Below are positions 2,333-59,539 of a stretch of DNA of 64,000 nt, in pieces. The notes beneath the pieces are model-generated. The model ran no database searches. It saw only the letters and a list, made by a program, of their open reading frames with translations, and was not told the origin of the DNA. The translations under genes and the position numbers were made by a program. The stretch covers positions 15,967,865-16,031,864 of the forward strand of contig NC_041005.1 of NCBI RefSeq assembly GCF_004193775.1, in the 5' to 3' direction. How positions within the stretch are numbered: position 1 is the stretch's first letter; each line of letters starts with the position of its first letter. Origin of the DNA: Glycine soja (Eukaryota; Streptophyta; Magnoliopsida; Fabales; Fabaceae).

Positions 2333-2530
2333 CACTACTACAAAAGCAAGAATTAACATCGTCAAATCTACATCAGTTATTAAAAAACCGATGTAGTAAA
2401 TATTGCGGTGGCATTTTTGAAATTTACACGAACTTTTGGACATGTTAACAATGGTTATTATGGAACCACCCTCGATATGCATGTTACAAAGGTGGTTTTA
2501 GAAAAACCGCCTTTGTTTGTAAGCAGACCA
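2333..2530 (+). repeat. CACTA left terminal and subterminal repeat region
   Basis: After the CACTACTACAAA terminus the sequence contains copies, in both orientations, of a motif close to CTACATCGGTT (for example near 2368-2398, where ctacatcagttatt is followed by aaccgatgtag). In CACTA elements such subterminal motifs bind the TNPA-type protein. This arm has few clear copies compared with the right arm. Confidence 0.75.
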
Positions 2531-2689
2531 CGACGGTACAACTTCTTTGTATAGATCGACTAACTTTTCATTTTCTATCTCTTATCTTATCTTCTCGGTA
2601 CTACAAACATATACACACTCGCCCTACATTTTCTCTCTCTCTCTCTCTCTTATCTTATCTTCAACCGCGATTCCAGAACCTTCCACAGC

Positions 2690-3022
2690 CTCAAGCCTCT
2701 GCTCTGCCTCCCTCTTCCCAACACTGTCGTATCCACTGCCTCCTTTGTCCTTTTCCTTCGCTGCAACTCGTTGTTCCCGGAATCCTCCACTGCCATTATC
2801 GACTCCGCCACCGACCATCGCCTCTCCTACGGCTAGCTCCTCCACTGTGCCAAAACCCTAGCCTCGAACCTCACCATAGTCCTCAAACTCACCAAAGGTG
2901 ACACCACGCTTGTTCTCTCCCCAAACATCCTCCAAGTTCCGACCCTTTACTTCGCACTTCTTTCTCTCGGCATGGACGTCTTCCCCGCGAGCCCTCTCTG
3001 CACGCGCTCCGAGATCACTCTC
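2690..3022 (+). pseudogene. Captured 4-coumarate-CoA-ligase-like (acyl-CoA synthetase) N-terminal fragment
   Basis: In one plus frame this reads IIDSATDHRLSYG, a stop, LLHCAKTLASNL, VLKLTKGDTTLVLSPN, ILQVPTLYFALLSLG and LCTRSEITL. This is the N-terminal segment of AMP-forming acyl-CoA synthetases of the 4CL-like group. These enzymes activate carboxylic acids with ATP and CoA, often in peroxisomes. Only the first portion is present, so the AMP-binding signature and catalytic domain are missing. A TAG stop follows SYG. The match ends abruptly near 3022 where kinase sequence starts, which marks a fusion junction. The upstream CT-rich stretch (about 2625-2655) may be the donor gene's 5' untranslated region. 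The captured frame differs from the kinase frame that follows. Confidence 0.75.
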
Positions 3023-3043
3023 AGTGTGGTTGTCTCCCCGCGA

Positions 3044-3618
3044 GCACAATCTGTGGGTGGTGATGCCTTTCAGGTTCGGCGGTTCATGCCTCCACATTCT
3101 CAAAGCCTCCCACCCCGATGGTTTTGAGGAGGTTGTCATTTCAACCATTCTCAAAGATGTCTTGAAGGCTTTGGAGTACCTTCACCATCATGGCCACATC
3201 CACTGCGATGTCAAGGCCGGAAACATTCTCATTGATTCACGCAGCACCGTCAAGCTCGACGACTTTGGTGTCTCTGCCTGCCTCTTTGATTCGGGTGACC
3301 GCCAACGCACACATAATACATTTGTCGGAACACCTTGCTGGATGGCATCCGAGGTCATGGAGCAACTTCATGGCTATAATTTCAAGTTTGCACTTCTCTC
3401 TTTATTATATTCACTCATTCTTTCTACCCTTTCTGTCTTAATAATTCTAGCTTCATTTCATTCCCAGAGCTGACATATGGTCATTTGGTATAACCGCCTT
3501 GGAGCTTGCACATGGTCATGCCCCTTTCTCAAAATTTCCACCAATGAAGGTACTTCTCATGACTCTGCAAAATGCACCCCCTGGCCTTGACTACGAAAGG
3601 GATAAGAAGTTCAGTAAG
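3044..3618 (+). pseudogene. Captured STE20/SPS1-type protein kinase fragment with intron
   Basis: Exon 3044-3385 reads HNLWVVMPF, GGSCLHILKASHPDGFEE, LKALEYLHHHGHIHCDVKAGN, KLDDFGVSACLFDSGDRQR and FVGTPCWMASEVMEQLHGYNF. A GT-AG intron (3386-3467) separates it from exon 3468-3618 with [39 protein letters not shown]. This is the catalytic core of a plant STE20-like (Fray/OSR1-type, BLUS1-like) serine/threonine kinase. The N-lobe with the glycine loop and catalytic lysine is absent. The HRD motif is HCD and the APE motif is ASE, so it cannot be an active kinase. The retained intron shows capture of genomic DNA, not cDNA. A 191-codon open frame beginning at 2898 spans the junction but reads the upstream enzyme piece out of frame. 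Confidence 0.85.
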
Positions 3619-4174
3619 GTCACCTCACCTCACCTTACCTCTTAGTTCTTCTTCACTCTTTTGATTGCTCCTTTATTCCTAACCTTCATCTCTCTTCCTT
3701 CTTTCCAGACTTCTCTCTTAGTAACTTTTTTCACCTGGACTTAGAGAATAATGGTGCTTTAGCCCCCTCCTGCAGAAGATCAGAGGTTTCTAACATGAAG
3801 TTTCATCTCACACAATACCATAGTCATAGACTAATTATCATCGATGCTGCATATTCACATCTAAACATATAAACTGTTGTTAACATTATGGAACATGTAA
3901 CTCTATGAGTATTATTAACCTCATTTTATACAAACAATTTTACAATATTAATGATCTTGGAAGTATTTCAGTCTCCTAAATGCCATATATCCCTTGATCT
4001 GCTATCTGTTGCATACCAATGTCTATAATTTCGCATTTTCACTTTTGGGCTATGTTCAATTAAAACATCAGCCCATTAGTGAGTCAATTCTCTAATAATC
4101 TGGTTAGTAATGTATCTTGTGTAATTAGCATAATAACATTTGATTGTTACCTTGTCCAGCCTTACTATTTTCAG
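3619..4174. other. CACTA interior, no recognised coding sequence
   Basis: No protein family was recognised in this 556-base stretch. It is AT-rich and looks like intron or intergenic DNA carried with the captured genes. The last bases (ctattttcag) form a good splice acceptor for the next captured exon. The boundary between kinase-derived and RST1-like-derived DNA lies somewhere inside and cannot be placed by eye. Confidence 0.5.
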
Positions 4175-4357
4175 GTTTTGCCTCCATCTGTTCGCATGGT
4201 TAAGTCTGTTGCTTCAAATTTCCTTTTGGAATGGTTGTTCCAACACGAGCATGAACACCGCCAATGGTCTGCTGCAATTTCTCTTGGATTAATCGCTAGT
4301 TGCCTTCATGTAACAAATCATAAAGAGAGATATCATAACATCACAGGATTTCTTGAG
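4175..4357 (+). pseudogene. Captured exon of an RST1-like (focadhesin-type) protein
   Basis: The 183-bp open segment reads [20 protein letters not shown], then [20 protein letters not shown], then [18 protein letters not shown]. It is bounded by an acceptor (tcag) and a donor (gta), so it is one complete 61-codon exon with its open frame intact. The wording resembles plant RST1, a large armadillo-repeat protein related to focadhesin with roles in cuticular wax and embryo development. I recall that similarity and have not searched it, so the family name is tentative. Flanking sequence looks intronic. As a lone internal exon it has no start or stop of its own. Confidence 0.6.
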
Positions 4358-5092
4358 GTATTCTTGTTCAATCCTTTTTGTGTATGTCTATTGTCCCATT
4401 TTTTTAAAGATCTTGATTATCTTGTTTCTATTCTCTATTTTTTAATTAAAACAAAATTTTGATCAAAAGTTTGAAGAAAAAATTTCGAAGATTGAAGAAA
4501 GTATAGCATTGTTTAAGAATTTTTCTTAACAGTTTTGATGAAATATAAGTGTTTTTGGAATTTTTCTAAGTGTTTCTAGAAAAAATATTAATTTAGTTAA
4601 CAAATCTAAAGGGAGAATATACTCCTAAGAAATTAAAGTATAAAATGATTATAAGTTCAAAAAATTTCACATACGCCCTTTGAATATTTTTATTTAGTAG
4701 TATTCTTATCGATATTTATTTCTCAGTCCATATTTAATGTACTCGAAGCAAAATCATAGTAAATAATATTATTTTATTTAGTTTTCTTGCTCATTATAGG
4801 CTAGTGGGAGTGGCGAATGACTTAGCTGGTTGAGATATATGGATGTTTTCATAAATAAATTTTGAATCTAATCGGCGATGATAATAAATAATTTCTCTTA
4901 GTCCACCTTCCCTTAGCTTTTATGAATCCAAGATTTTTTGGAGATAGAAACTCAGACTTCTATGAGATTATATTATGTGTAGAGTAATAAGTTCAACTAA
5001 ATCATAGTTTACATTTTGTTTCTTCATTTATTATGTATACATATTCCTCTGAATAGATTCCACCATCTAAACAATCCTTGTTCATTTTGTAG
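4358..5092. other. CACTA interior, AT-rich, no recognised coding sequence
   Basis: No coding similarity was recognised in these 735 bases. The sequence is very AT-rich, with long runs of A and T, and looks like intron DNA joining two captured gene pieces. It ends in ttcattttgtag, the acceptor of the glycolate oxidase exon. Confidence 0.5.
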
Positions 5093-5315
5093 GATGTGAA
5101 GTGGCTTCAAACAGTCACCAAACTGCCAATTCTGGTGAAGGGTGTGCTGACTGTTGAGGACAGTAAGAAAAATCAAAGCTGCTTTCAATTTCATCTGTTC
5201 TCTCCCTCTTTGAATATTTTACTAATGCCTTCATTCCAACATGGCAGCAAGGATAGCTGTACAAAGTGGTGCAGCTGGAATTATATATAGTGTCCAATCA
5301 CGGAGCTAGGCATTT
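5093..5315 (+). pseudogene. Captured glycolate oxidase fragment (two exons)
   Basis: Exon 5093-5162 reads [20 protein letters not shown] and VED. After a GT-AG intron (5163-5247) the next exon reads [13 protein letters not shown] followed by VSNHGAR in a shifted frame. This is the FMN-binding (S)-2-hydroxy-acid oxidase barrel of plant glycolate oxidase, the photorespiratory peroxisomal enzyme that oxidises glycolate to glyoxylate. The lysine of LVKG and the NHGAR segment lie around the flavin and active-site histidine. A 4-base TATA insertion after GII shifts the frame, and only a small part of the roughly 370-residue enzyme is present. Codon phase is correct across the intron, which again shows genomic capture. 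Confidence 0.8.
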
Positions 5316-5387
5316 GTTTATGTGTTGGGTATTTCTGAAGTTCTAGATTAGTTACAACTCTGTTGTTGAATATTTTGTTTGCCTCAG

Positions 5388-5864
5388 GATAATAGTATTG
5401 CCTATTGGAGAAAATTTGTGGCTGAATATTACTCTCCTCGTGCAAAGAAACGGTGGTGCTTGTCATTATATAGCAATGTTGGGCATCATGCACTTGGTGT
5501 TTCCCCCCCAAGCAGCTATGGTATATTTTTGCACTTGTCATTTATCCTTGTTTTTCTCTCTTCATAAATAGGATGCCTTAATCTTTGCTAATATTCAAAT
5601 ATTTAATCATGCATTCAAAATGTTAGTTGATTTTATTAGCTTATCATGTAATTGTTGACAACTCTTAAAATTGCCTCTATACTAGAGTTATGTCTAAAAT
5701 TATTGCATTTATTTTCTTTGATATTTTAGGTCTACACCAGTTTTCTTTTTTAATCTCTTAGTGCTATTGAATCTTTGACGAGTACATACATTGACATTGA
5801 TATTTCTTTGTTCAGGATGCATGGTAGTGTGACATATGTGGTTCTAAATCTGGAAGGGGATTTG
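5388..5864 (+). pseudogene. Captured SEUSS/SLK-type transcriptional co-regulator fragment (two exons)
   Basis: Exon 5388-5520 reads DNSIAYWRKFVAEYYSPRAK, KRWCLSLYSNVGHHALGV. Exon 5816-5864 reads DAW, a stop, CDICGSKSGRGF. These are consecutive parts of the LIM-domain-binding-like region of plant SEUSS and SEUSS-like co-repressors, which pair with LEUNIG in flower and embryo development. Exon edges show good acceptor (tcag) and donor (gtatat, gtaag) sites, so the piece is genomic. A run of seven C after GV shifts the frame by one base. A TAG replaces the expected glutamine codon after DAW. Only about 60 codons survive, without the glutamine-rich parts. Confidence 0.8.
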
Positions 5865-5969
5865 GTAAGTATATTGGAAATTAAAATATTGAGTCCTATA
5901 TGGTTTGAGAAAACCTTTTTTTATCTTCATTTCCTATTCTCATAAATAATTACAGAAATGTAACTCTAT

Positions 5970-6817
5970 TTCAAGACTGTTAGACTGCCAATGTTAACAG
6001 TTCTGAAGCTTCACAGTTGTGATGGCATCACTACAGCCTCAATGACTGCAATATCTCACAGTAATATGTTGGAGGTGTGCATTTTTTCCGTGATGTTGAT
6101 ATTAATATCTCTTATTCCTGAGCTATACTTGCAAAATGAGAAATGACGTTACTGCTTTTGTATTGTACTTACTTTTTTAGTCATGTTATTCATTATATCC
6201 CATATTGTGAATTTGGCCCATGGAGTTGTTACCTATAATTTTTTTTAAAACTCACCTATGGTGTGTTGATGAATTCAGAGTTTGACATCAGTTTAGTTCA
6301 TCAGTACCTCTCTAATTCAGAGTTTGGCCCATGGAAAGAGCATCATTTTGTCCAGTAAGTGATATTGATTGCCTTATATTCTATTTTGTAAGAGATTAAA
6401 CTTGTTAATTCTTTATGCTTTTTGATTTGAATGGTTAGGATGCTGCTAAATTGATAATTAAGGCTATTGAGTATATGAAGTTTTCTGGTTGTGGGTTTTC
6501 CTGACTGAGTATATGAAGTTTTCTGGTTGTGAGTATATGAAGTCTTCTACGTTCATTAGTTGTCCACTCTTAGCAAATTGTTTTCATTTGTTATTTTTAA
6601 ACCTTTCGCTCTCGGTAAATTTGAAAGAGGTTGATGTCACTTGTCTCAACCTATGCTTTCTTAATTTAAGGTATGGTTGACTCTCCAATAAATGTCTGTT
6701 GGTTTTTATCCATCTCATATCCGATATGATAATGTCTTAAATTCTCTGTTCAGCAATTGTTCCTCTTTGGAAATTTTGAAGTTAGAGTGTCCAAAATTGA
6801 CCAATCTATTCCTTCAG
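5970..6817 (+). pseudogene. Captured F-box/LRR-repeat protein (FBL15-like) fragment
   Basis: Three separated pieces fit one leucine-rich-repeat protein. Bases 5975-6074 read VRLPMLTVLKLHSCDGITTA, SMTAISHSNMLE. Bases about 6608-6670 read LSVNLKEVDVTCLNLCFLNL. Bases 6754-6817 read NCSSLEILKLECPKLTNLFL. Donor and acceptor sites border them (gagGTGTGC, aagGTATGG, ttCAG, cagGTATT). The repeats resemble Arabidopsis F-box/LRR-repeat protein 15 (SLOW MOTION), a substrate receptor of SCF ubiquitin ligases. The F-box is not present. Several repeats expected between the first and second pieces are missing, so the donor gene was rearranged or decayed after capture. Sequence between the pieces (6075-6600) contains short duplicated stretches, such as a repeat around gagtatatgaag at 6470-6540. 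Confidence 0.72.
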
Positions 6818-7129
6818 GTATTAAGTCTTACCTGATAGTTTTAATCTATTGATTCATTTGTAGTCAACTTTATATGATATAGATACGAACTTCTATGCCC
6901 TCATTGCAATTTTTTTCTTCTCATGTTTTTGTTTTTTTCTGGTACTCTTTTTAATTGCAGTCCATTATCCTAGGTTGATAATGGGCTAACCAACATTGCG
7001 TTGGGATATTGCTCATGGTAGCATCATCTATGATAGAAATCTGACCAGGTTAAAGTATGAGCATCAAGAAAAAAAAAATTTGAATATATTGTTATTGCCA
7101 TTCATGAACAAAAAGCAAAAAAATTAAAA
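6818..7129. other. CACTA interior, no recognised coding sequence
   Basis: No gene was recognised between the last captured exon and the right subterminal repeats. The stretch is T-rich, then A-rich around 7070-7130. A possible acceptor at about 6958 suggests that further donor intron or exon sequence may be present. Confidence 0.45.
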
Positions 7130-7515
7130 AAAAATTATCCTACATTGGTTATACAGAAAGCCGATGTAGAATGTTTTACCATGGGGTAGCATTCTACAAC
7201 GTTTGATAGCCACACCCGATGTAGAAAGCTGACGATTCTACATCGGTTATTAGGACACCCGATGTAGAAATCTAACCATTCTACATCGGTTTTCTTGATA
7301 ACGGATGTAGAATAATCAGTTTTCTACATCAGGTTCACCTAATAACCGATGTAGAATAGTCAACACTCTACATCGGTTTTGGGTCGACACCCGTAGTGGA
7401 ACCCAAGCCATTCTACATCGGTCGTTGAAACGTCGTAGTAGGACGATGATGTTTCAACAATGCCGACTACAACATCACGTCAAAACCGATGTAAAAAGTC
7501 TACTTTGTAGTAGTG
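7130..7515 (-). repeat. CACTA right subterminal repeat array and terminal repeat
   Basis: About ten copies of a motif near TTCTACATCGGTT, in alternating orientation and often as facing pairs, fill these 386 bases. The sequence ends with TTTGTAGTAGTG, the inverted copy of the left terminus. Facing pairs (aaccgatgtagaa next to ttctacatcggtt) could fold as hairpins. Such arrays serve as binding sites for the CACTA-encoded DNA-binding protein. Confidence 0.88.
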
Positions 7516-8220
7516 CAAGCACATACAATTGTCATAAGGACAAACCTTCCAATAATGAAAATTTTGCACAAGCCTAAGTTGGTGGGAAGGATGATAGCTT
7601 GGGCTATTGAGTTATCTGAGTTTAATATTGAATATAAACCTAGAAAAGCCATGAAAGCGTAGGCTTCGGCAGATTTTATTGCCTAACTAACCCCAAGAAT
7701 AGACAATACCGAACTTGCCCAATGGACTTTGTATGTCGATAGTTCTTTCCGTCGTAGCGACAGTGGTTCTGTAATAACCTTGAAATGTGGAAATGGATTT
7801 GTGGTGGAACAATCCATAACATTCAACTTTAAAACTTCTAATAACCAAGCCAAATACAAGGCAAGTATCTCAGGTCTGCTCTTGGCTTTAGATTTGGAAG
7901 TCACACATGTAAAACTTTGTAGTGATTCAATACTAGCGGTAAACCAGGTTAATGGTGAATTGTAGGTGGAAGAAGAAATATTGCAGAAATACTTAGCCAG
8001 GGGTAAAGGATTTGGAAGGAAAAATTCAAAAGATTCAGTTTCTCTATCTCAGTAGGAACAAAAGCGAGAGTGCAGATACCCTAGCGAGATTGGCAAACTT
8101 GAGTGAAGTGAGAGGAAGAAGAACTATTATCCAGCAAACGATTGATAAAACGAATTTGGTCCTTGCAATTAACACAAAGCAAATTTGGATAAAACCCATT
8201 GTTGAGTATCTAGAATAAGG
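7516..8220 (+). pseudogene. Ogre/Tat-type pol continued: RNase H region
   Basis: The frame broken at 2332 resumes here as QAHTIVIRTNLPIMKILHKP and MIAWAIELSEFNIEYKPRKA, the end of the first RNase H domain. A second RNase-H-like domain follows (WTLYVDSSFRRSDSGS, NNQAKYKASISGLLLALDL, LCSDSILAVNQVNGEL). Tandem RNase H domains are typical of Tat-lineage Ty3 elements. Stops follow KAMKA, DFIA and NGEL, and a frame change occurs near 8005, so the gene is inactive. A later open stretch (8012-8215) has FLYLSRNKSESADTLARLAN, the usual link to integrase. Confidence 0.82.
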
Positions 8221-18044: not shown

Positions 18045-18779
18045 ACAGTGGGCCAAAGGTTCATAATAATGTTTAGTTGTTTTGTGTGTAGCTCTTTCGT
18101 TTAGGTTGTGAGTGTATGTTGTTTTTTTTTTCTGTAGCATTCTGTTTTGCATTTCAGTCGCGTTCCCTAATTAGTGACTGTTTTTAGCGACTGATTCAGT
18201 TAGTGTTTTGCTATGAACAATGATTAGCGACTGATTTTGCAATTTAATTAGCGATTTTTGTTTTGATAGTTAGAGTTGTTATTTTTGGCTGATTTTATGT
18301 GTGGTAGTTTCTTTTGATCCATATTTTGTGTGAAAAATACCAGGAGCACTTGGTGTGGCAATATTTGAGAGAGACAAAAATTTTGGGAACTTGTTTTTAG
18401 CAAAACTTAAAACAGCCATAACTTTTGCTCCGGGTATCAAAATGACTATTATTATATATGCATTTGGGGTATAAAAAAATTCCCGATACTATGATGATTG
18501 GATTTAGCCGGTTAGGGTTTTCCAAAATAAAAAAATCAGCCGTTTACTAAGTTTTTTTTATTTTTCAAGTATTATTGTCCTATTTTTCTAAACTTTGCTT
18601 AGGTAGTTTTCATATTTAGACTTTGAATTTTTGTTTGAAATTTTTTGTGCTATCTTTTCATGATTTTAGGGTGTTGTTCACAAAATTTTAGCTCATTTGG
18701 ATATCATTTGAGTATAGCTGTAGTTGTACCCCCTTGTTAGGTGCTTGTTGACAGATACATGATTCGCTGCATATAGTGC

Positions 18780-19306
18780 ATGACTAGGGGAAATCCAGGT
18801 GATTTACAGCCCTTTGATCCTGAAATAGATAGAACCTTTCATAGATTAGTTAGGCATAGTGTGCATCCTGGTCATTCTGTGCATTTTGAGCATTTTGAGT
18901 ATTCTGTTGTTGGTGATTCTGAATATTCTGATTTTGAGCATTCGACTACTAATTTTCATACTGAGAACATGGCTCAACCCCCACTTTGTGAGAGGACTCT
19001 TAGGGAGATGGCTGCACCTGATTTCACTTATGAAGGCTTGTGCATTCAATATCTTGATGAGGGTGTTCCATATGTTCTCAAGACTGGACTAATACATTTG
19101 CTGCCCAAGTTTCATGGTCTTGCAGGTGAAGATCCTCATAAGCATCTTAAGGAGTTCCATATTGTTTGTTCCACCATGAAGCCCCCTGACGTCCAAGAAG
19201 ATCATATCTTTCTAAAGGCTTTTCCTCATTCTCTAGAGGGAGTGGCAAAAGATTGGCTATACTACCTTGCTCCCAGGTCCATTTTCAGTTGGGATGACCT
19301 TAAGAG
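18780..19306 (+). pseudogene. Athila gag, N-terminal part
   Basis: The frame opens at ATG 18780 (MTRGNPGDLQPFDPEIDRTF). It reads the Athila capsid: MAQPPLCERTLREMAAP, IHLLPKFHGLAGEDPHKHLK, EFHIVCSTMKPPDVQEDHIF, LKAFPHSLEGVAKDWLYYLA and WDDLK. Between 18780 and 19306 there is no stop. The coding sequence is interrupted at 19307 by a solo LTR, and the open frame runs on into that LTR to 19394 only by chance. The capsid continues at 20320. The 5' untranslated region (18045-18779) holds no recognisable gene. Confidence 0.9.
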
Positions 19307-20319
19307 TGTGAATGTATGTATACATGATTTTGATGATTTCAAAGAAGAATCTAACAAGGCTGCTTCAAATGATAAGCATTTGCTTCAAGAATAATTCAAG
19401 ATTGCTTCAACAATCAAAGCCTTGTTTCAAGATTCACTAAAGACCAAGCCTTGCCTTAAAACAAAGTGCTTTCAAGACATGCAAGGCTCTGGTAATCGAT
19501 TACCAGAAGACAGGGTTGAGAAATAGCTGTTGAAAAATGTTTTGAATTTGAATTTTCAACATGTAATCGATTACCATATGTTTGTAATCGATTACCAGCA
19601 ACGGAACTTTGGAAATTCAAATTCAAAAGTCATAACCCTTCAAATTATAACTGTGTAATCGATTATACAAACATTGTAATCGATTACCAGTGGAAAGTTT
19701 TCAGAAAATCTGCCAACAGTCACATCTTTTCATTAGATTTGTGAATGGCCATCAAAGGCCTATAAATAGGTGACTTGGGCACGAATTTTATGCAGAGAGT
19801 TTTGCTTGGCCAAAATGTTTTATCCTCTCTCAAAAGAAAATGAGAGAGATTCCAAGAGAACTTCATTGCCAAATGCTCTCTCAAGAACTCTTGGACAAAC
19901 ACTTGCAAATCCATTAAGAGTTCATCCATGGATCTTCATTGTAATATTCTTCTCTTGAAGAGAGAATTCTTCTTTCATTCTTCTTATTCAATGAGATTGG
20001 TTAAGAGACTGTGAGTCTCTTGTTGTAAAGGATTCCTGAACACAAGGGATGGGTTGTCCCTGTATGGTTTAGACTTTGTAATGGATTTTACAAAGATAGT
20101 GGAAATCTCAAGTGGGTTGCTTGAGTACTGGACGTAGGCACGGGTTGTGGCCGAACCAGTATAAAACTGTGTTTGCATTCTCTCTTCCCTTATCTCATTT
20201 ATGTTATTGCAATCAATTTTTCCTTTCATGTTTAAAGAACATTATTAAATTGATTGTTGTTGCTTCTTCTGCATTCTAAGCCTATCCCTCTTAAGTTATT
20301 GAGGCCACAAGGTCTAACA
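19307..20319 (+). mobile_element. Copia-type solo LTR, 1013 bp, inside Athila gag
   Basis: It begins TGTGAATG and ends TCTAACA, and is flanked by a perfect AAGAG duplication (19302-19306 and 20320-20324). Joining the flanks brings the capsid frame back into register (WDDLK then RVFLEKFF), which confirms the borders. It contains paired TAATCGATTAC palindromes (about 19492-19690), a GGCACGGG..GAACCAGTATAAA segment at 20135-20165 and the gaggccac tail shared with the other copies. It is about 550 bp shorter than the 14096 copy, so it represents a related subfamily. Confidence 0.94.
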
Positions 20320-21300
20320 AAGAGGGTGTTCTTGGAGAAATTCTTCCCTGCATCTAGGACCACTGTCATCAAAAAAGACATTTTAGGCATCAGGCAACTT
20401 AGTGGAGAGAACTTGTATGAGTATTGGGAAAGATTCAAGAAATTGTGTGCAAGCTGTCCTCACCACTAGATTTATGAGCAACTCCTTCTGCAATATTTCT
20501 CTGAGGGACTTAGCAACATGGAGAGGAGTATGATTGATGCTGCCAGTGGTGGAGCATTTGGTAACCCCTGCTGAGGCTAGGAATTTGATTGAGAAGATGG
20601 CTTCCAACTCCCAACAATTCAGTGCAAGAAATGATGCTATTGTCCTTAGAGGAGTCCATGAGGTGACCACGAATTCATCTTCATCTACTGAAAATAAAAA
20701 GCTTGAGGGAAAACTTGATGCCTTGGTCAACCTAGTAACTCAGATTGCCATGAATCAGAAATCTGCACCTGTTGCAAGAGTCTGTGGTCTATGTTCTTCT
20801 GCAGATCACCATACAGATCTTTGTCCTTCTTTGCAGCAATCTGGAGTCAATGAGCAACCTGAAGCTTATGCTGCAAACATTTATAATAGACCCCCTCGGC
20901 AGCAAAACCAACAACAGCAGAATAATTATGATCTTTCATGCAACAGATACAATCCAGGTTGGACAAATCATCCAAATCTGAGAAGGGCAAGTCCTCCAAA
21001 ACAACAATAGCCTGTCCCTCCTTTCCAGAATGTTGTTGGTCCAAGCAAGCCATATGTTCCTCCTCCAATACAGCAGTAGCAACAGCAGCAGTCACAACAA
21101 AGACAACAAGCAACTGAGGCTCCTCCTCAACCTTCCTTAGAAGAGTTAGTGAGACAAATGACCATCTAGAATATGCAATTTCAGCAAGAGACAAGAGCCT
21201 CCATTTAGAATCTGACAAATCAGATGGGACAGATGGCTACTCAATTGAACCAAGCTCAGTCCCAAAATTCTAACAAATTGCCTTCACAAACTGTGTAGAA
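20320..21300 (+). pseudogene. Athila gag, C-terminal part with zinc knuckle
   Basis: Capsid continues as RVFLEKFFPASRTT, GIRQLSGENLYEYWERFKKL and CASCPHH, then a stop. It runs on to LLLQYFSEGLSNMERSMIDA and, after a frameshift near 20560, TPAEARNLIEKMASNSQQFS. A CCHC zinc knuckle (CGLCSSADHHTDLC, spacing C-x2-C-x4-H-x4-C) lies near 20785-20830. It is followed by a glutamine-, asparagine- and proline-rich tail with stops near 21008, 21079 and 21167. The family role is packaging of element RNA in virus-like particles. The gene is broken several times. Confidence 0.88.
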
Positions 21301-21309
21301 TCCAAAAAA

Positions 21310-21535
21310 TATGAGTGAATTTGATCCTTATGCATTGACTCTGAACCTGAGTTTGAATTTGATCCTTGTATAGGAAACATCCATTTTTATCTGATTTGCA
21401 TACTTGTCATTCCTTATGCATTGACTCTGAACCTGAGTTTGAATTTGATCCTGTATCTGATTTTTATGCTGAGAGTGAATTTGAATTTGAGTCTGGTGTT
21501 GTACCTCTTGATGTTGATTTTTTAGAGTCAAAATG
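21310..21535 (+). repeat. Tandem duplication between Athila gag and protease/RT
   Basis: A stretch with cttatgcattgactctgaac and ctgagtttgaatttgatcct occurs at about 21328 and again at about 21415, a period near 87 bases. The repeated segment encodes acidic residues (SEFEFD-like). It sits where the gag-protease boundary should be, and no protease active site (D-T/S-G) was found here. Confidence 0.75.
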
Positions 21536-21545
21536 AACTAACCAT

Positions 21546-23200
21546 ATGGTAGGAAGTACATATACTTCTTACTTGCTTTATGAGGTACAGGCTGAGGAAC
21601 CTTCTTCTTCTCCTACCATGGTTCCTCCCATTGTTCAGCCACCACCCACACCAGAGTTGAAGCCCTTACCAGCAACCCTCAAATATGATTACTTGGAGGA
21701 CAAGGAAAAATTTCCAGTGATCATCTCTGCCTCCCTTGCTGCAGAGCAAGAGGAGAAATTGTTGCTAGTTCTCAAGAAGCACAAGAAAGCCATTGGATGG
21801 GCTTTAGCAGACATTCCTGGCATTAGCCCATCTACCTTCATGCATAGGATACTTTTAGAGGATGGAGCTAAGCCAGTGAGGCAGCCACAGTGGCGACTCA
21901 ACCCTGTCATTCTAGATGTGGTGAAAAAGGAAGTGACCAAGCTTTTACAAGCTGGAATCATCTACCCCATTTCTGAAAGCCAGTGGGTGAGTCCAGTCCA
22001 AGTGGTTCCTAAGAAGACAGGCCTCACAGTGATTAGGAATGAAAGGGATGAGCTTATCCCCACAAGAGTGCAGAACAGCTGGCGAGTCTGCATTGATTAT
22101 AGGAGGCTGAACCAGGTAACCAAAAAATATCATTTTCCCCTGCCTTTCATTGATCAAATGCTTGAGCGCTTGGCAGGTAAGTCTCATTACTGTTTTCTTG
22201 ATGGTTTTTCTGGTTATTTACAAATTCATATTGCTCCTGAGGATCAAGAAAAGACCACATTCACCTGTCCCTTTGGCACTTTTGCCTATAGGAGGATGCC
22301 CTTTGGTCTATGCAATGCCTCTGGTACCTTCCAGCAGTGTATGCTTAGCATTTTTAGTGATTTTTTAGAGAGTTGCATAGAGGTGTTTATGAATGATTTT
22401 ACTGGTTATGGATCCTCTTTTGATGCATGTTTGGATAGTCTGGATAGAGTTCTTAATAGATGCATTGAAACTAACCTTGTGCTGAATTTTTGAAAAAATG
22501 TCACTTCATGGTAGAACAAGGTATAGTTTTAGGACATATCATTTCCAGTAGAGGCATAGAGGTAGACCCTGCAAAAATAGATGTTATTTCACAATTGCCT
22601 TACCCTTCTTGCGTGCGAGAGGTTCGTTCTTTTCTTGGTCATGCAGGGTTTTATAGGCGTTTTTTCAAGGATTTTAGCAAAGTGGCCCTTCCACTATCCA
22701 ATCTGTTGCAAAAGGAGGTGGAGTTTGATTTTGATGACCGGTGCAAAGAGGCTTTTGATTGCCTCAAGCGTGCTGTGACTACCACCCCCATCATTCAGGC
22801 ACCTGATTGGACAACCCCATTTGAGCTAATGTGCGATGCATCCAATTACGCATTGGGGGTTGTCCTTGCTCAAAAGATTGATAAGCTGCCTCGGGTGATC
22901 TACTACGCTTCCAAAACTTTGGATGTTGCTTAAGAAAATTACACTACCACAAAGAAGGAGCTATTAGCGATAGTTTTTGCTCTTGAGAAATTTCGTTCAT
23001 ATTTACCTAGTACTCGTGTTATTGTTTATACTGACCATGCAGTTTTGAAGTACCTGTTGAAGAAGGCTGAATCAAAGCCTAGATTGATCAGGTGGATGCT
23101 TTGGCTCCAAGAATTTGATTTGGAGATCCATGATCGGAGTGGTGCGCAAAATCTCGTGGCTGACCACCTGAGTAGGATTGAGCGTGCGTCTGAGGACTCA
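21546..23200 (+). pseudogene. Athila pol: reverse transcriptase and RNase H
   Basis: The frame from 21546 reads LPATLKYDYLEDKEKFPVII, KKHKKAIGWALADIPGISP and PQWRLNPVILDVVKKEV. Next are WVSPVQVVPKKTG, WRVCIDYRRLNQVTKKYHFP, YCFLDGFSGYLQIHIAPEDQ and TTFTCPFGTFAYRRMPFGLC. The active site reads FMND where an intact element has F-M-D-D, so a catalytic aspartate is lost. A frameshift at 22490 leads to KKCHFMVEQGIVLGHIISSR, GIEVDPAKIDVISQLP and SFLGHAGFYRRFFKDFSKVA. RNase H follows (FELMCDASNYALGVVLAQK, a stop at 22931, [25 protein letters not shown]-like, [23 protein letters not shown]). The coding sequence ends in DHLSRIE. Confidence 0.92.
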
Positions 23201-24604
23201 CCCATTCAGGATGATTTCGGCTTTCGTGCGTTGGTGGGTCTTCGAGATCCTTTCGATGACCTATGTTTCTGGATGACCATTTGTACATTCTGTATAGTAT
23301 TTCTGATTCCTTCCCCACTCCCTGGTTTGCTAATATTGTGAATTATTTGGTTGCTTCTGTTTTTCCTCCCTTAGCATCTAAAGCTCAAAATGATAAAATT
23401 AAGAGCGATGCTAAGCATTATATTTGGGATGACCCCTATTTATGGAAGTTGTGCAGTGACCAGGTTATTAGGAGATGCATTCTAGACCATGAGATTGACT
23501 CAGTCCTACAATTATGTCATTCTTCCGCACCAAGTGGCCATCTTGGCATACAGAGGACAGCTCGCAAGGTGCTTGACTGCAGTTTCTATTGGCCCACCAT
23601 CTTCAAGGATGCGTGGAGAATCTGTAGCACTTGTGAGCCTTGTCAAAGAGCAGGCGGCTCACTTTCATGGAGACAACAAATGCCTCAACAACCCATGTTA
23701 TTCTATGAGGTGTTTGATGTCTGGGGTATAGATTTTATGGGGCCTTTCCCTGTCTCTTTTGGTTTTGTTTACATTCTCCTTACTGTTGATTATGTTTCAA
23801 AATGGGTGGAAGCCAAACCCACCAGAACTAACGATGCTAAGGTTGTTGTGGATTTTGTTAGATCTAATCTATTTTGCAGGTTTGGAGTCCCTAGAGCCAT
23901 CGTTAGTGATCAAGTATGCCTTGCTAAAAAAGTATGGGGTCATGCACAGAATTTCCACACCTTACCACCCCCAAACTAATGGGCAGGCTGAGATTTCAAA
24001 CAGGGAGATAAAAAGGATCTTAGAGAAGATTGTGCAACCGAACAGAAAAGATTGGAGCACCAGGCTGGATGATGCTCTTTGGGCGCATAGGACTGCCTAC
24101 AAAGCACCCATAGGAATGTCACCTTATCGGGTTGTCTTTGGCAAGGCATGCCATCTTCCTGTAGAGATAGAGCACAAAGCTTACTGTGTTGTAAAGACCT
24201 GCAACTTCTCTATTGATCAGGCTGGAGAGGAAAGGAAGTTGGAACTAAGTGAGCTAGATGAGATCCGTTTAGAAGCCTATGAGAATTCCAAATTCTACAA
24301 GGAGAAGACCAAGAAGTTCCATGATAGCCTGATAGCTAAGAAGGACTTCGTGGTTGGACAGAATGTTTTATTGTATAACTCTAGGCTCGGACTCATGAGT
24401 GGTAAGTTGAGGTCAAAGTGGATTGGTCCTTTTGTGGTGACTAATGTTTTTCCTTATGGTACAGTTGAGATCAAAAGTGAATCCATAGAGAAGAGCTTCA
24501 AGGTCAATGGACACCGGCTGAAACCATTCCTCATAAATCCCTCCTTAGTGTATGTAGTGGTGGAGGAGACCTCCTTACTTCACCCTACTTCTCTTCCACC
24601 ATGA
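23201..24604 (+). pseudogene. Athila pol: integrase
   Basis: The zinc domain reads CHSSAPSGHLGIQRTARKVL and ICSTCEPCQRAG. The core has [20 protein letters not shown] and DYVSKWVEA. Near 23910 the segment holding the second catalytic aspartate is partly deleted and the frame shifts (IVSDQ then [10 protein letters not shown]). [20 protein letters not shown] follows with the catalytic glutamate, then [20 protein letters not shown]. The C-terminus reads [16 protein letters not shown] and [13 protein letters not shown], and a stop at 24602. The normal function is insertion of element DNA, and the deletion should abolish it. Confidence 0.9.
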
Positions 24605-30735: not shown

Positions 30736-33615
30736 TCACTGCTTTGCCTGAGGATGAGAATTCCTAGACCACAACAATGTTAGAGGCGGTAAAGGACAAC
30801 GGTCTTTCAAACAAACCTGTTGTACGTGAACAAACATTATTAACTCAAATGAACACAAATGTTGCATAAATATAAAAATTAGACAAACTATCTTCAGTGT
30901 ACCTGAACAAAATGATTTCCAAACATGTGACCGACACATATAATGCGGTGCACAGAAGAATCTGGTGGTGGTTGACTTCTAAGAGGAAAAAATGTCATGC
31001 TTTGTTGTCGGGACAATGATACAAGGATTACATTATACCTTGATGCAATGACATATCCCATCTCCGTTATATCCATCCACTTGTCCACACTAACCTGAAT
31101 CAAACAAACATACACATCCAAGTTATTTAAAGTTTGTTCTTAAAAAAAACCTAAACAACATACCTTGAAAAACCCATCAACAAGTAGGGACAACCTTAAT
31201 TCTTCAAATCTCTTTGTGCCACCGAAGAGGTTGATGTAGTCATGCAACCATTTGCCAAGTTCTTTAGTCAATTCGTTGCGCACCAACGACCAAGAATCTT
31301 CGCCCATACCTAATAAAGCGACAATGGACCAATATCCACAGTTACCGTCCGCTTTCACATCCACAATGTTGTTAATGAAACCCTGTATAAATGACTCAAA
31401 TTGATCCAACATCAAGATGATCCTTCTTGGCTTCGGCGGGTCAGAAGATGATGCACTATGTTTCACTGAAGAGTTGTTGTTTTGAACAGAATGAAAAACA
31501 TCAACATACTCCCAATAAGACGGATCACGCTTTGTGGATCTTTGGTTTCTGTTCATCGATTTCTTCGGTGCACCTTTAGTGTTGACCTTTGACGGAGGAG
31601 GACACATAGAGTTTTGATTAGGGTGTGCAATTTCTCAAAGTTTACTCTTTAGAGTAACTTTACCGCAAACATCAAGTTCCTCAAATCTTTTAGATATGGT
31701 CTCGATCTCTTCCTTGATGGTGACTTCGGCCTCACATAACCCTTGGTCTGAAAAACTAAGTCTCCTCCAAAACATATGGATTGAATCGAGTGGGATGCTG
31801 CCAACAGCATACCTAGATAGCTCACATGCACAAGGAAGACCGTGCGTGGTTCTCATCACACAACCACAAGAAAAGGGATTCTTGCCAGCATAATGTACAC
31901 ACTCAAACTCAGCAACAATCTCATTTAAAGCATACCTTGAAACCATTCCAAGAAGCCTCTTGTATAAGGTTTTTTTAAATACATGTTCAACCACATGTGT
32001 ACTTGTTTCAAAGGAGGCTTTAATTTGAGTGTGCTGCAGCGTGATCATGTTGCTCATGGCATCCCAAACACTACATAGGTCTCCAAGGCTATTATGTAAT
32101 ACTCTTTTTAAAGCCCAATGAGCAGATTCAACCCTACATTTGAAATACACAAAAAACAGTAAAAATATACAACAATTAAATACCATGAATTAATAAACAT
32201 TACTAGAAAAACTGAAACATTTTAATACCTGTTTGTTGTTGTGTTGCCTAGGTGCATCACCTTATTCGTCCAGGCTGTAATAAATTTTTCCTTGTGTGGG
32301 ATTATCCATGTTTCATTAACATAGTCAACGAACATTGGCCAAGGTGAACAAGCCATTTGAAACTTCTAAAGGCACTCAGTGAATTGCTGTTTGGAAGGAC
32401 AATCAACCAGACTACCCCAGGCATCCATGACATACTCCCAAGCATTTTTTTGACTGATTAAAGATTTTCACTTGGCCTTGATGTTCTTGTTGATGTGAAA
32501 CCTGCACAACAAGTTTGTACACTCGGAGAACACAATTTTCACTGCATTCATCAATGCTAGGTCTCTGTTAGTGACAATAACTACAAGGAGGCAATCGCGT
32601 ATTAAAAATAGACTTTGAAACCATTCCAAAGCCCATACAACATTATTAACACGTTCACCCTCCAGATATGCAAACCCAACAGAGAATGTCATCCCCATTG
32701 GTGTCACCCCAACAAAGTCAAGTAGTGGGAGTATGTACCTATTTGTTTTGTAGGTACTGTCTATCAAAAACACCAAATGACATGCATTGCATAACTTCAC
32801 TACATCTGGGTGACACCAAAGCAGATCACGTACCACAAATTCATCCTTTAATCTATGCCAATGAATATATTGATCACGTTCAAGAAGCTTCATTAGATGT
32901 TGCATTTCAGTATCACTTCCTCTAATGGAAGAATGATATGCACTTCTTGCATTGTATATTTGTTTGATTATGGTGCAACTGTTGGCATTGTGCTCCTTCA
33001 ATGTTAGCAGGATGTTTCTTGGTTTCACCATCGACTTTGTCATGTCAACAATAATATTCTTCTCATCCTTAGTCAATCGCTCAGCGTATGGATGTCCAAC
33101 TAAGGACTTCACCAATTCATGATTGTGAATCCCACAGATCAACTTCACCATCCAACCTTCCCCTCTAATCACTGGTTTCCCATGAAGTTTGAAGGGACAA
33201 CCACATTTCCTACTCCCAATGTCTCTTCTAACAAATTCTTTCTTCCTACACTTATACTGACCGCTCCTTTCACAATCAATTAACACAAATGAACTTCTTC
33301 CTCTACTACCAATATGTGTGTCAGACCTCATAATGACTGCAACAAATCCATTTTCATGGGCAACTGATCGAGCCCACTGCAAAACATCATCTTAAGTACC
33401 AAAGACCTACAACGCAACCCCGACAATTTATTTTTTATGCAAAACATACATTCAACCAAATGACTCAAACTAATGAACATGATTACCTGAGAAATATTAA
33501 AAGCATCCGAACAATCAACATGTGGTTCATTCACACCACATTCTTGTTCATTTTCATAATCCATATCAACTTCTTCAGACATTGTATTTCCATACATCCA
33601 TTGATCTTCATCCAT
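30736..33615 (-). pseudogene. MULE transposase with C-terminal OTU-type protease domain
   Basis: Five exons fit on the minus strand: 33615-33487, 33376-32229, 32133-31164, 31094-30903 and 30826-30736, all with GT-AG borders. Exon 2 holds the FAR1/MuDR-like DNA-binding part (CGCPFKLHGKPV, GIHNHE) and the transposase core (VFLIDSTYKTNRY, LPLLDFVGVTPMG, FSVGFAYLEGE, CRFHINKN). Exon 3 continues with VESAHWALKRVL and a SWIM-like zinc region (CVHYAGKNPFSCGCV, TTHGLPCACELSRY). In the same exon and frame, after a stop, come a linker and the OTU motif VKADGNCGYWSIVALLG, with NHFVQV later supplying the probable catalytic histidine. In-frame stops follow IKAK, TECL and KSKL. The TDRD motif expected at the second catalytic aspartate reads TNRD. 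The protein is inactive as encoded. Confidence 0.88.
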
Positions 33616-58726: not shown

Positions 58727-59365
58727 GTACCCTCACCTTCAGAGGGCTACACACCCTCACCTTCAGAGGACTTCACGCCCTCACCTTCAGAGGACAACAC
58801 GTCCTCTCCTTCAAAAGGCGACACGTCCTCACCTTCAGAGGACTACACGTCCTCATCATTAGAAGGCTGCACGCCCTCACCTTCAGAAGACTACACGTCC
58901 TCGCCTTCAGAGGGCTGCACGCCCTCGCCTTTAGAGGACTACACGTCCTCGCCTTCAGAGGACTACACATCTTCGCCATCAGAGGGCTGCACGCCCTCGC
59001 CTTCAGAGGGCTACGCGTCCTCACCTTCAGAGGGCTACATACACGCCCTTAGAGGACTATGCGTCCTCACCTTCAGAGGGCTACATGTCCTCACCTTCAG
59101 AGGGCTACACGCCTTTACCTTCATAGGACTACACGTCTTCACCTTTAGAGGACTACACGTCCTCGCCATCAGAGGACTACACGTCCTCACCATTAGAGGG
59201 TTGCACGTCCTTGCCTTCAGAGGGCTGCACACCCTCTCGTTTAGTGGGCTGCGCACCCTCGCTTTTAGAGGGATGGACGCCCTCGCCTTCAAAGGGTGAC
59301 ACGTCCCCGACTTTAGAGGGCTACGTGTCCTCACTTTTAATGGGCTCCACATCCGCACCTTAAGA
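58727..59365. repeat. 30-bp minisatellite, about 21 copies, open in several frames
   Basis: The unit is close to cctcaccttcagagg followed by gctacacgc or actacacgt. The unit length is exactly ten codons, so frames stay open on both strands: the plus frame from 58670 repeats SPSEGYTSSPSEDYT, another reads LTFRGLHVLTF, and the minus strand reads RTCSPLKVRTC. Two unit types (ggctgc/ggctac versus gactac) alternate irregularly. It is GC-rich compared with the surroundings. There is no separate evidence that any frame is a protein. It lies within transposon-derived sequence. Confidence 0.88.
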
Positions 59366-59539
59366 GAATTTAAGGTCCTCTGCCCTTAATGTTTAACCGA
59401 AACTTGCGCTCCAGGTTACGGGAGCCAGTAGTTTCCTTTTATTAGTTCAGTTCCTGGGCCACCCCCTGATCCTGGAGGAGGGCCAACTATGTGAGCACAA
59501 CTAGAGGAGGAGGCTGTCGTACAACCACTATGCATACTG

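Follow-up and report, generated by a model that had tools for sequence, protein, structure and literature searches.

A 64,000-nucleotide stretch of the Glycine soja genome (assembly GCF_004193775.1, contig NC_041005.1, positions 15,967,865 to 16,031,864 of the forward strand; hereafter the window, to which all coordinates refer) holds what is almost certainly a non-autonomous and now decayed Pack-CACTA element of a Glycine-type genome. The element spans 2333-7515 and is 5,183 bp long. It has CACTA ends and a subterminal repeat array, it is inserted into the RNase H frame of a gypsy element, and it encloses pieces of six host genes, all on one strand and with introns. How transposons with terminal inverted repeats (TIRs) collect pieces of several genes is still debated. 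An element with well-placed boundaries, nameable donors and at least one filler-like junction is relevant to this debate, as its donor DNA could discriminate between gap-repair and fusion models.

The element is opened at 2333 by CACTACTACAAAA and closed at 7515 by an inverse copy of it. The first 12 bp of the two TIRs (2333-2361 on the + strand and 7487-7515 on the - strand) are identical, and the 29 bp match at 72%. In the 64-kb window, perfect CACTACTACAAA sites occur only twice, at the two element ends and in inverted orientation; allowing one mismatch adds two sites, both beyond the element. The subterminal regions carry CTACATCGGTT-like sites on both strands. Counting the complement, there are 13 with at most one mismatch against 0.49 expected, a number reached in none of 100 shuffles, and all of them lie within the element: two at the left end (2368-2396) and 11 at the right (7137-7494). 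The right end is built partly of 43-45-bp units and is strongly foldable. As single-stranded DNA, 7137-7515 has a computed folding energy of -87.3 kcal/mol, where shuffled sequences average -37.7 (z -11.6). The perfect CACTA...TAGTG inverted ends and the subterminal repeats in both orientations are features of the CACTA (EnSpm) superfamily, and the termini and arrays reported in the initial annotation are borne out. When the whole element was translated in six frames (stops as X) and scanned with Pfam at E 0.1, without hand-picked pieces, no transposase family was found. The absence of a TNP2-like transposase is expected of a non-autonomous element and does not bar membership of the superfamily, as only autonomous members carry one.

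The element interrupts a decayed Ty3/gypsy element, whose RNase H part forms the left flank (Pfam RT_RNaseH_2 E 2.5e-15, RT_RNaseH E 6.3e-7). When the two flanks are fused through the right copy of the target triplet, CAA (7516-7518, adjoining the 3′ end), they give an unbroken RNase H reading, HYF-Q-AHT, which matches Pfam RT_RNaseH with E 3.2e-12 over profile positions 30-105 of 105. The left copy (2330-2332) is TAA. Triplets flank both ends, but they differ at one base, and the target site is not clean. Since joining the flanks with CAA restores the continuous gypsy reading, the RNase H frame predicting CAA at the left copy as well, the simplest reading suggests that CAA was the original triplet and that the left C changed to T later. 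One might suppose instead that the whole belongs to the host genome, be it a normal gene locus, a chimeric one or a segmental duplication, and that its CACTA-like ends arose by chance. The introns, splice borders and common orientation kept by the pieces would suit such a locus, but it would leave to coincidence that perfect 12-mers occur just twice in 64 kb, inverted and exactly at the boundaries, and that the array is present at both ends. The empty-site reading refutes it in the main, as the flanks fuse into one gypsy RNase H domain, and we give it practically no credence.

Between the ends of the Pack-CACTA element lie fragments of unrelated host genes and no transposase, the arrangement that marks Pack-type TIR elements. 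All six pieces proposed at first are present, with one name refined (SEUSS) and one borne out to superfamily level only (4CL-like). The kinase piece (3042-3618) is of the STE20 type, as proposed: its best PDB matches are OSR1 and SPAK (E 6.8e-56), and Pfam Pkinase is found with E 3.9e-23 for the containing open reading frame and 1.1e-21 in the unpicked frame. It consists of a first exon part (3042-3385), an 82-nt intron (3386-3467, GT..AG) and a second exon (3468-3618) followed by GT; here and below, intron borders were placed by us on the sequence so that the protein stays continuous. RST1 is represented by one exon (4175-4357), with AG before and GT after, in which 56 of 62 amino acids are identical to Glycine soja RST1 (E 1.1e-31, the top of 98 matches); among solved structures it has no match. 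The glycolate oxidase piece has an exon (5093-5162), an 85-nt intron (5163-5247, GT..AG) and a second exon part (5248-5312), with PDB glycolate oxidase at E 9e-15 and Pfam FMN_dh at E 1.3e-9 when spliced and 0.0013 in the unpicked frame. The reading frame changes near 5284, and the part beyond it we take to be glycolate oxidase as well.

The piece described as a SEUSS-type co-regulator does belong to the SEUSS family, but protein search replaces SEUSS by SEUSS-LIKE 2 (SLK2). Its first exon (5388-5520, with a frame slip in the C-run 5503-5509) has 41 of 45 amino acids in common with Glycine soja SLK2 (P0101; E 3.2e-23) and matches Pfam LIM_bind with E 3.2e-6. A 295-nt intron (5521-5815, GT..AG) separates it from a second exon (5816-5864) that contains a TAG stop and agrees with Glycine soja SLK2 at 15 of 16 amino acids. 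The exons are bordered by AG before and GT after. Against solved structures, the piece found only two rubredoxins at E 0.84 or more. Escallonia and Mucuna each have a public SLK2 model (P0099 and P0100, respectively) with extra sequence at the position of this intron.

FBL15 (5976-6817) is present as several exons of one gene, whose order is kept and which, in tblastn, miss stretches between the blocks. Block A (5976-6074) corresponds to about amino acids 342-374 of soybean P0226 (27 of 30 identical, E 5.5e-15). Block B (6276-6354), which has an in-frame TAG and joins amino acids 494-507 to 538-545, is weak alone (E 0.005 for the linked pair). Block C (6558-6670, to amino acid 820) and block D (6754-6817, amino acids 821-842, then GT) are separated by an 83-nt intron (6671-6753, GT..AG) and together reach E 6e-24. 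Block C is preceded by local repeats (6468-6548), two copies of TGAGTATATGAAGTTTTCTGGTTGTG and a third partial one. The exon at 6558-6670 was missing from the earlier list of pieces; the FBL15-like assignment itself stands, at 81 of 89 amino acids to the soybean protein. Against solved structures there was one match, at E 0.24.

The remaining piece, nearest the left end (2660-3019, with an in-frame TAG at 2834), is from an acyl-CoA ligase (AMP-binding, Pfam PF00501, E 6e-9; 2.8e-9 for a shorter version and 4.2e-7 in the unpicked frame; best PDB E 0.0026). The Pfam match covers residues 42-120 of the 127 translated, or 2783-3019, and the first 41 residues (2660-2782) are presumably of the same origin. 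The piece had been called 4CL-like. What the Pfam match establishes is membership of the AMP-binding superfamily; the narrower name is our assumption.

All six pieces are on the + strand, which agrees with the shared orientation stated in the initial annotation. In the whole-element scan, the - strand matched no Pfam family. On the + strand, Pkinase (E 1.1e-21) and LIM_bind (3.2e-6) were joined by AMP-binding (4.2e-7; 29.5 bits) and FMN_dh (0.0013; 18.3 bits), and the latter two, in these unspliced frames, stay under their curated cut-offs of 29.9 and 24.9 bits, respectively. When eight proteins from three of the six families (RST1, SLK2 and FBL15) were used in tblastn, none matched the minus strand at E<1. 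The RST1 and FBL15 pieces have no Pfam match, their identities coming from protein searches. In NCBIfam, the sole matches were to acyl-CoA ligases and FMN enzymes, with low scores far below cut-offs. A seventh piece, an LRR-like DNGLTNIALGYC reading near 6960-7040 between FBL15 and the right array, was considered and set aside as unsupported: its sole PDB match is an antibody (E 0.54).

The pieces appear to have been captured as DNA. The introns lying within single genes (kinase, glycolate oxidase, SLK2 and FBL15 C/D) have GT-AG borders in four of four cases, as had been noted. The SLK2 intron, moreover, is similar to its counterpart in a legume. The model of Mucuna pruriens SLK2 (P0100) translates this intron, and the peptide so retained scores 80 against the SLK2 intron of the element, vs. 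48 for the best of 1000 base-shuffled introns. The intron thus appears to have been inherited from an SLK2 gene. Both lines argue against capture through reverse transcription of spliced mRNAs, since the four introns, one of them in the kinase, were retained. Only the ligase/kinase join leaves mRNA some room: two coding sequences abut there in different frames, without an intervening intron, and an mRNA intermediate is compatible with these two ends taken by themselves. For the element at large, we regard that route as highly improbable.

The donor was likely a Glycine-type host genome, although the rankings fall short of proof. Glycine soja comes first in the RST1 search, and FBL15 blocks A, C and D, over 89 residues, have 81 (soybean P0226) and 79 (P0227) identities, the first and second of 43 matches. 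For SLK2, Glycine is third and fourth among the best 120 of 400 matches, where the G. soja entry has the joint-highest identity, 93%. The soybean candidates for the FBL15 donor are on chromosomes 6 and 4.

Some observations weigh against a Pack-CACTA element with Glycine donors. When ranked by E-value, FBL15 places Bauhinia first and the top two soybean proteins eighth and ninth of the 43, and the SLK2 search places Escallonia and Mucuna over Glycine among the best 120 of 400; the FBL15 and SLK2 queries, however, included intron sequence, and their E-values are affected by it. The donors are known here from protein-level relatives only, the ligase is identified only at superfamily level, and the two copies of the target triplet mismatch at one base.

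The pieces have decayed since capture. TAG codons interrupt the ligase, SLK2 and FBL15 pieces, and the frame changes in glycolate oxidase and SLK2. Such lesions suggest that protein-level constraint on the pieces has ended. They also bear on annotation: plausible gene models for a kinase, RST1 and FBL15 could be called here, though the pieces are decayed fragments.

How the pieces were joined is a separate question. The element may have acquired them one after another, through template switches primed by microhomology while breaks were being repaired, with copied filler left at the junctions, and two breakpoints speak for this. The ligase/kinase join (3020-3041, or 3020-3045 with the whole repeat) carries TCCCCGCGAGC at 3035-3045, an 11-mer that also stands 53 bp upstream (2982-2992). 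Within FBL15 block B, the 16-bp gap between amino acids 507 and 538 is wholly tiled by overlapping copies of two 13-mers lying 42 and 111 bp upstream: the join (6314-6335) holds copies of AATTCAGAGTTTG (from 6272) and TTTGGCCCATGGA (from 6212). A repeat copy fell on both of these tight breakpoints in 1077 of 100000 random placements (about 1.1%), but at least one of two random intervals met a copy in 20095 of 100000 (about 20%), and the breakpoints were picked after the repeats were seen. The element interior has 10 local repeats, where shuffles average 0.34 and gave at most three in 200 trials. This excess over shuffles is not specific, because other segments of the window are equally repeat-rich: 12 others of 4.55 kb hold 2-67 repeats (2-7 loci) vs. 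10 (6 loci) here. A general enrichment of repeats at junctions was accordingly dropped after this within-window control. What is left is suggestive of templated filler made by repair synthesis with template switches, and we put stepwise gain by this route at somewhat below an even chance.

Alternatively, terminal deletion and fusion of two neighboring CACTA copies could have enclosed the host DNA. This model is in print for Arabidopsis Pack-CACTA elements (Catoni et al., 2019, as covered in PMC13317346), but six donor genes would probably demand several rounds of it. Moreover, the element has no internal CACTA end; the four matches to the 12-bp end (at most one mismatch) are all at its boundaries or beyond it. 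Fusion is the less likely of the two routes and, to us, rather improbable.

A Pack-type CACTA element that gathers several genes has a precedent in soybean. Tgm-Express1, in the wp allele, was in print by 2007 (PMC1947982): a CACTA element of 5.7 kb that carries fragments of five host genes, which are spliced to give many chimeric RNAs. The element described here resembles it in superfamily, in size (5.2 vs. 5.7 kb) and in carrying unrelated host fragments with exons and introns, six here against five there. The genes captured are different, those of Tgm-Express1 being UP, CDC2, FPK, malate dehydrogenase and cysteine synthase. The settings differ as well: Tgm-Express1 is a transcribed element whose site is an intron of an expressed gene (PMC1947982), whereas the present element lies in a dead gypsy element.

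Tgm-Express1 belongs to the Tgmt* subterminal family. Tgmt* and Tgm1 have 13-bp CACTA ends, a 3-bp target site and asymmetric subterminal repeats that can form stem-loops (4 on the left and 24 on the right in Tgmt*; PMC2613891). The element here shares with them the CACTA ends and the asymmetric, foldable subterminal layout, and its target site is likewise a triplet, though imperfectly duplicated. The subterminal motif differs: it is TTGGCAG followed by AATCTTACAG in Tgmt* (PMC2613891) and CTACATCGGTT here. By exact matching in the element, the full 17-bp Tgmt*/Tgm-Express1 motif and its second half are absent, and TTGGCAG occurs twice, both times internally. Because the motif is absent as an exact match, we place the element outside the Tgmt*/Tgm-Express1 family. 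Among other legume elements, pvCACTA1 of common bean is likewise a CACTA element with a 3-bp target site, but it has TIRs of 145-158 bp, its members are small and, in that report, it was not detected in soybean (PMC4938662). Host DNA within TIR ends and short matches at breakpoints are found also in animal Pack-TIR elements, for which gap-filling and template-switching models with microhomology have been put forward; that paper covers animals (PMC8277862).

The initial annotation suggested an undescribed soybean-type Pack-CACTA element. A Pack-type CACTA element with introns, with RST1 and FBL15 pieces most like those of Glycine and of a family different from Tgmt*, does stand; the kind was already known from Tgm-Express1 (PMC1947982). 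This is gene shuffling of a sort known in soybean, and the element is a new example with different genes. It is not described in the available portions of PMC1947982, PMC2613891, PMC13317346, PMC4938662, PMC2830986, PMC8277862 and PMC4423477, and a text search of the open-licence literature found no paper with its end and subterminal sequences. SoyTEdb reported 65 CACTA elements (PMC2830986), and the element may be among them.

From these features a history can be proposed. A helper CACTA transposase would have moved the element by recognizing its ends and array. The host-gene pieces would have been copied in as DNA while breaks in or beside the element were repaired, be it by gap repair, by template switching, or through neighboring elements that lost terminal sequence and fused. 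If transcribed from outside, the GT-AG exon units could, by analogy with Tgm-Express1, splice into chimeric RNAs. A bolder and doubtful proposal is that the element represents a Glycine CACTA family of its own, apart from Tgm1 and Tgmt* and with CTACATCGGTT arrays as its mark. Such a family would gather several genes in one orientation through template-switching repair, leave copied filler where they join and in this way assemble foreign exons into chains ready for splicing.

The rest of the window has other remains of mobile and foreign DNA. In another Ty3/gypsy-like remnant (18777-23976), separate open reading frames hold the domains of reverse transcriptase, RNase H and integrase as well as DUF6738, the last with a weak match to gag. 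The first 200 bp (1-200) are a plastid-derived insert with a psaA/psaB-like reading (Pfam PsaA_PsaB E 1.9e-13) amid nuclear-looking repeat DNA. On the - strand, 32471-33391 is probably part of a Mutator-like element, as it encodes a transposase domain of the MULE type (E 7.9e-19) that is weakly similar to FAR1-type sequences. Finally, 58731-59366 is a tandem array of a 24-bp repeat, in about 27 copies at 76%, that is open in more than one frame.

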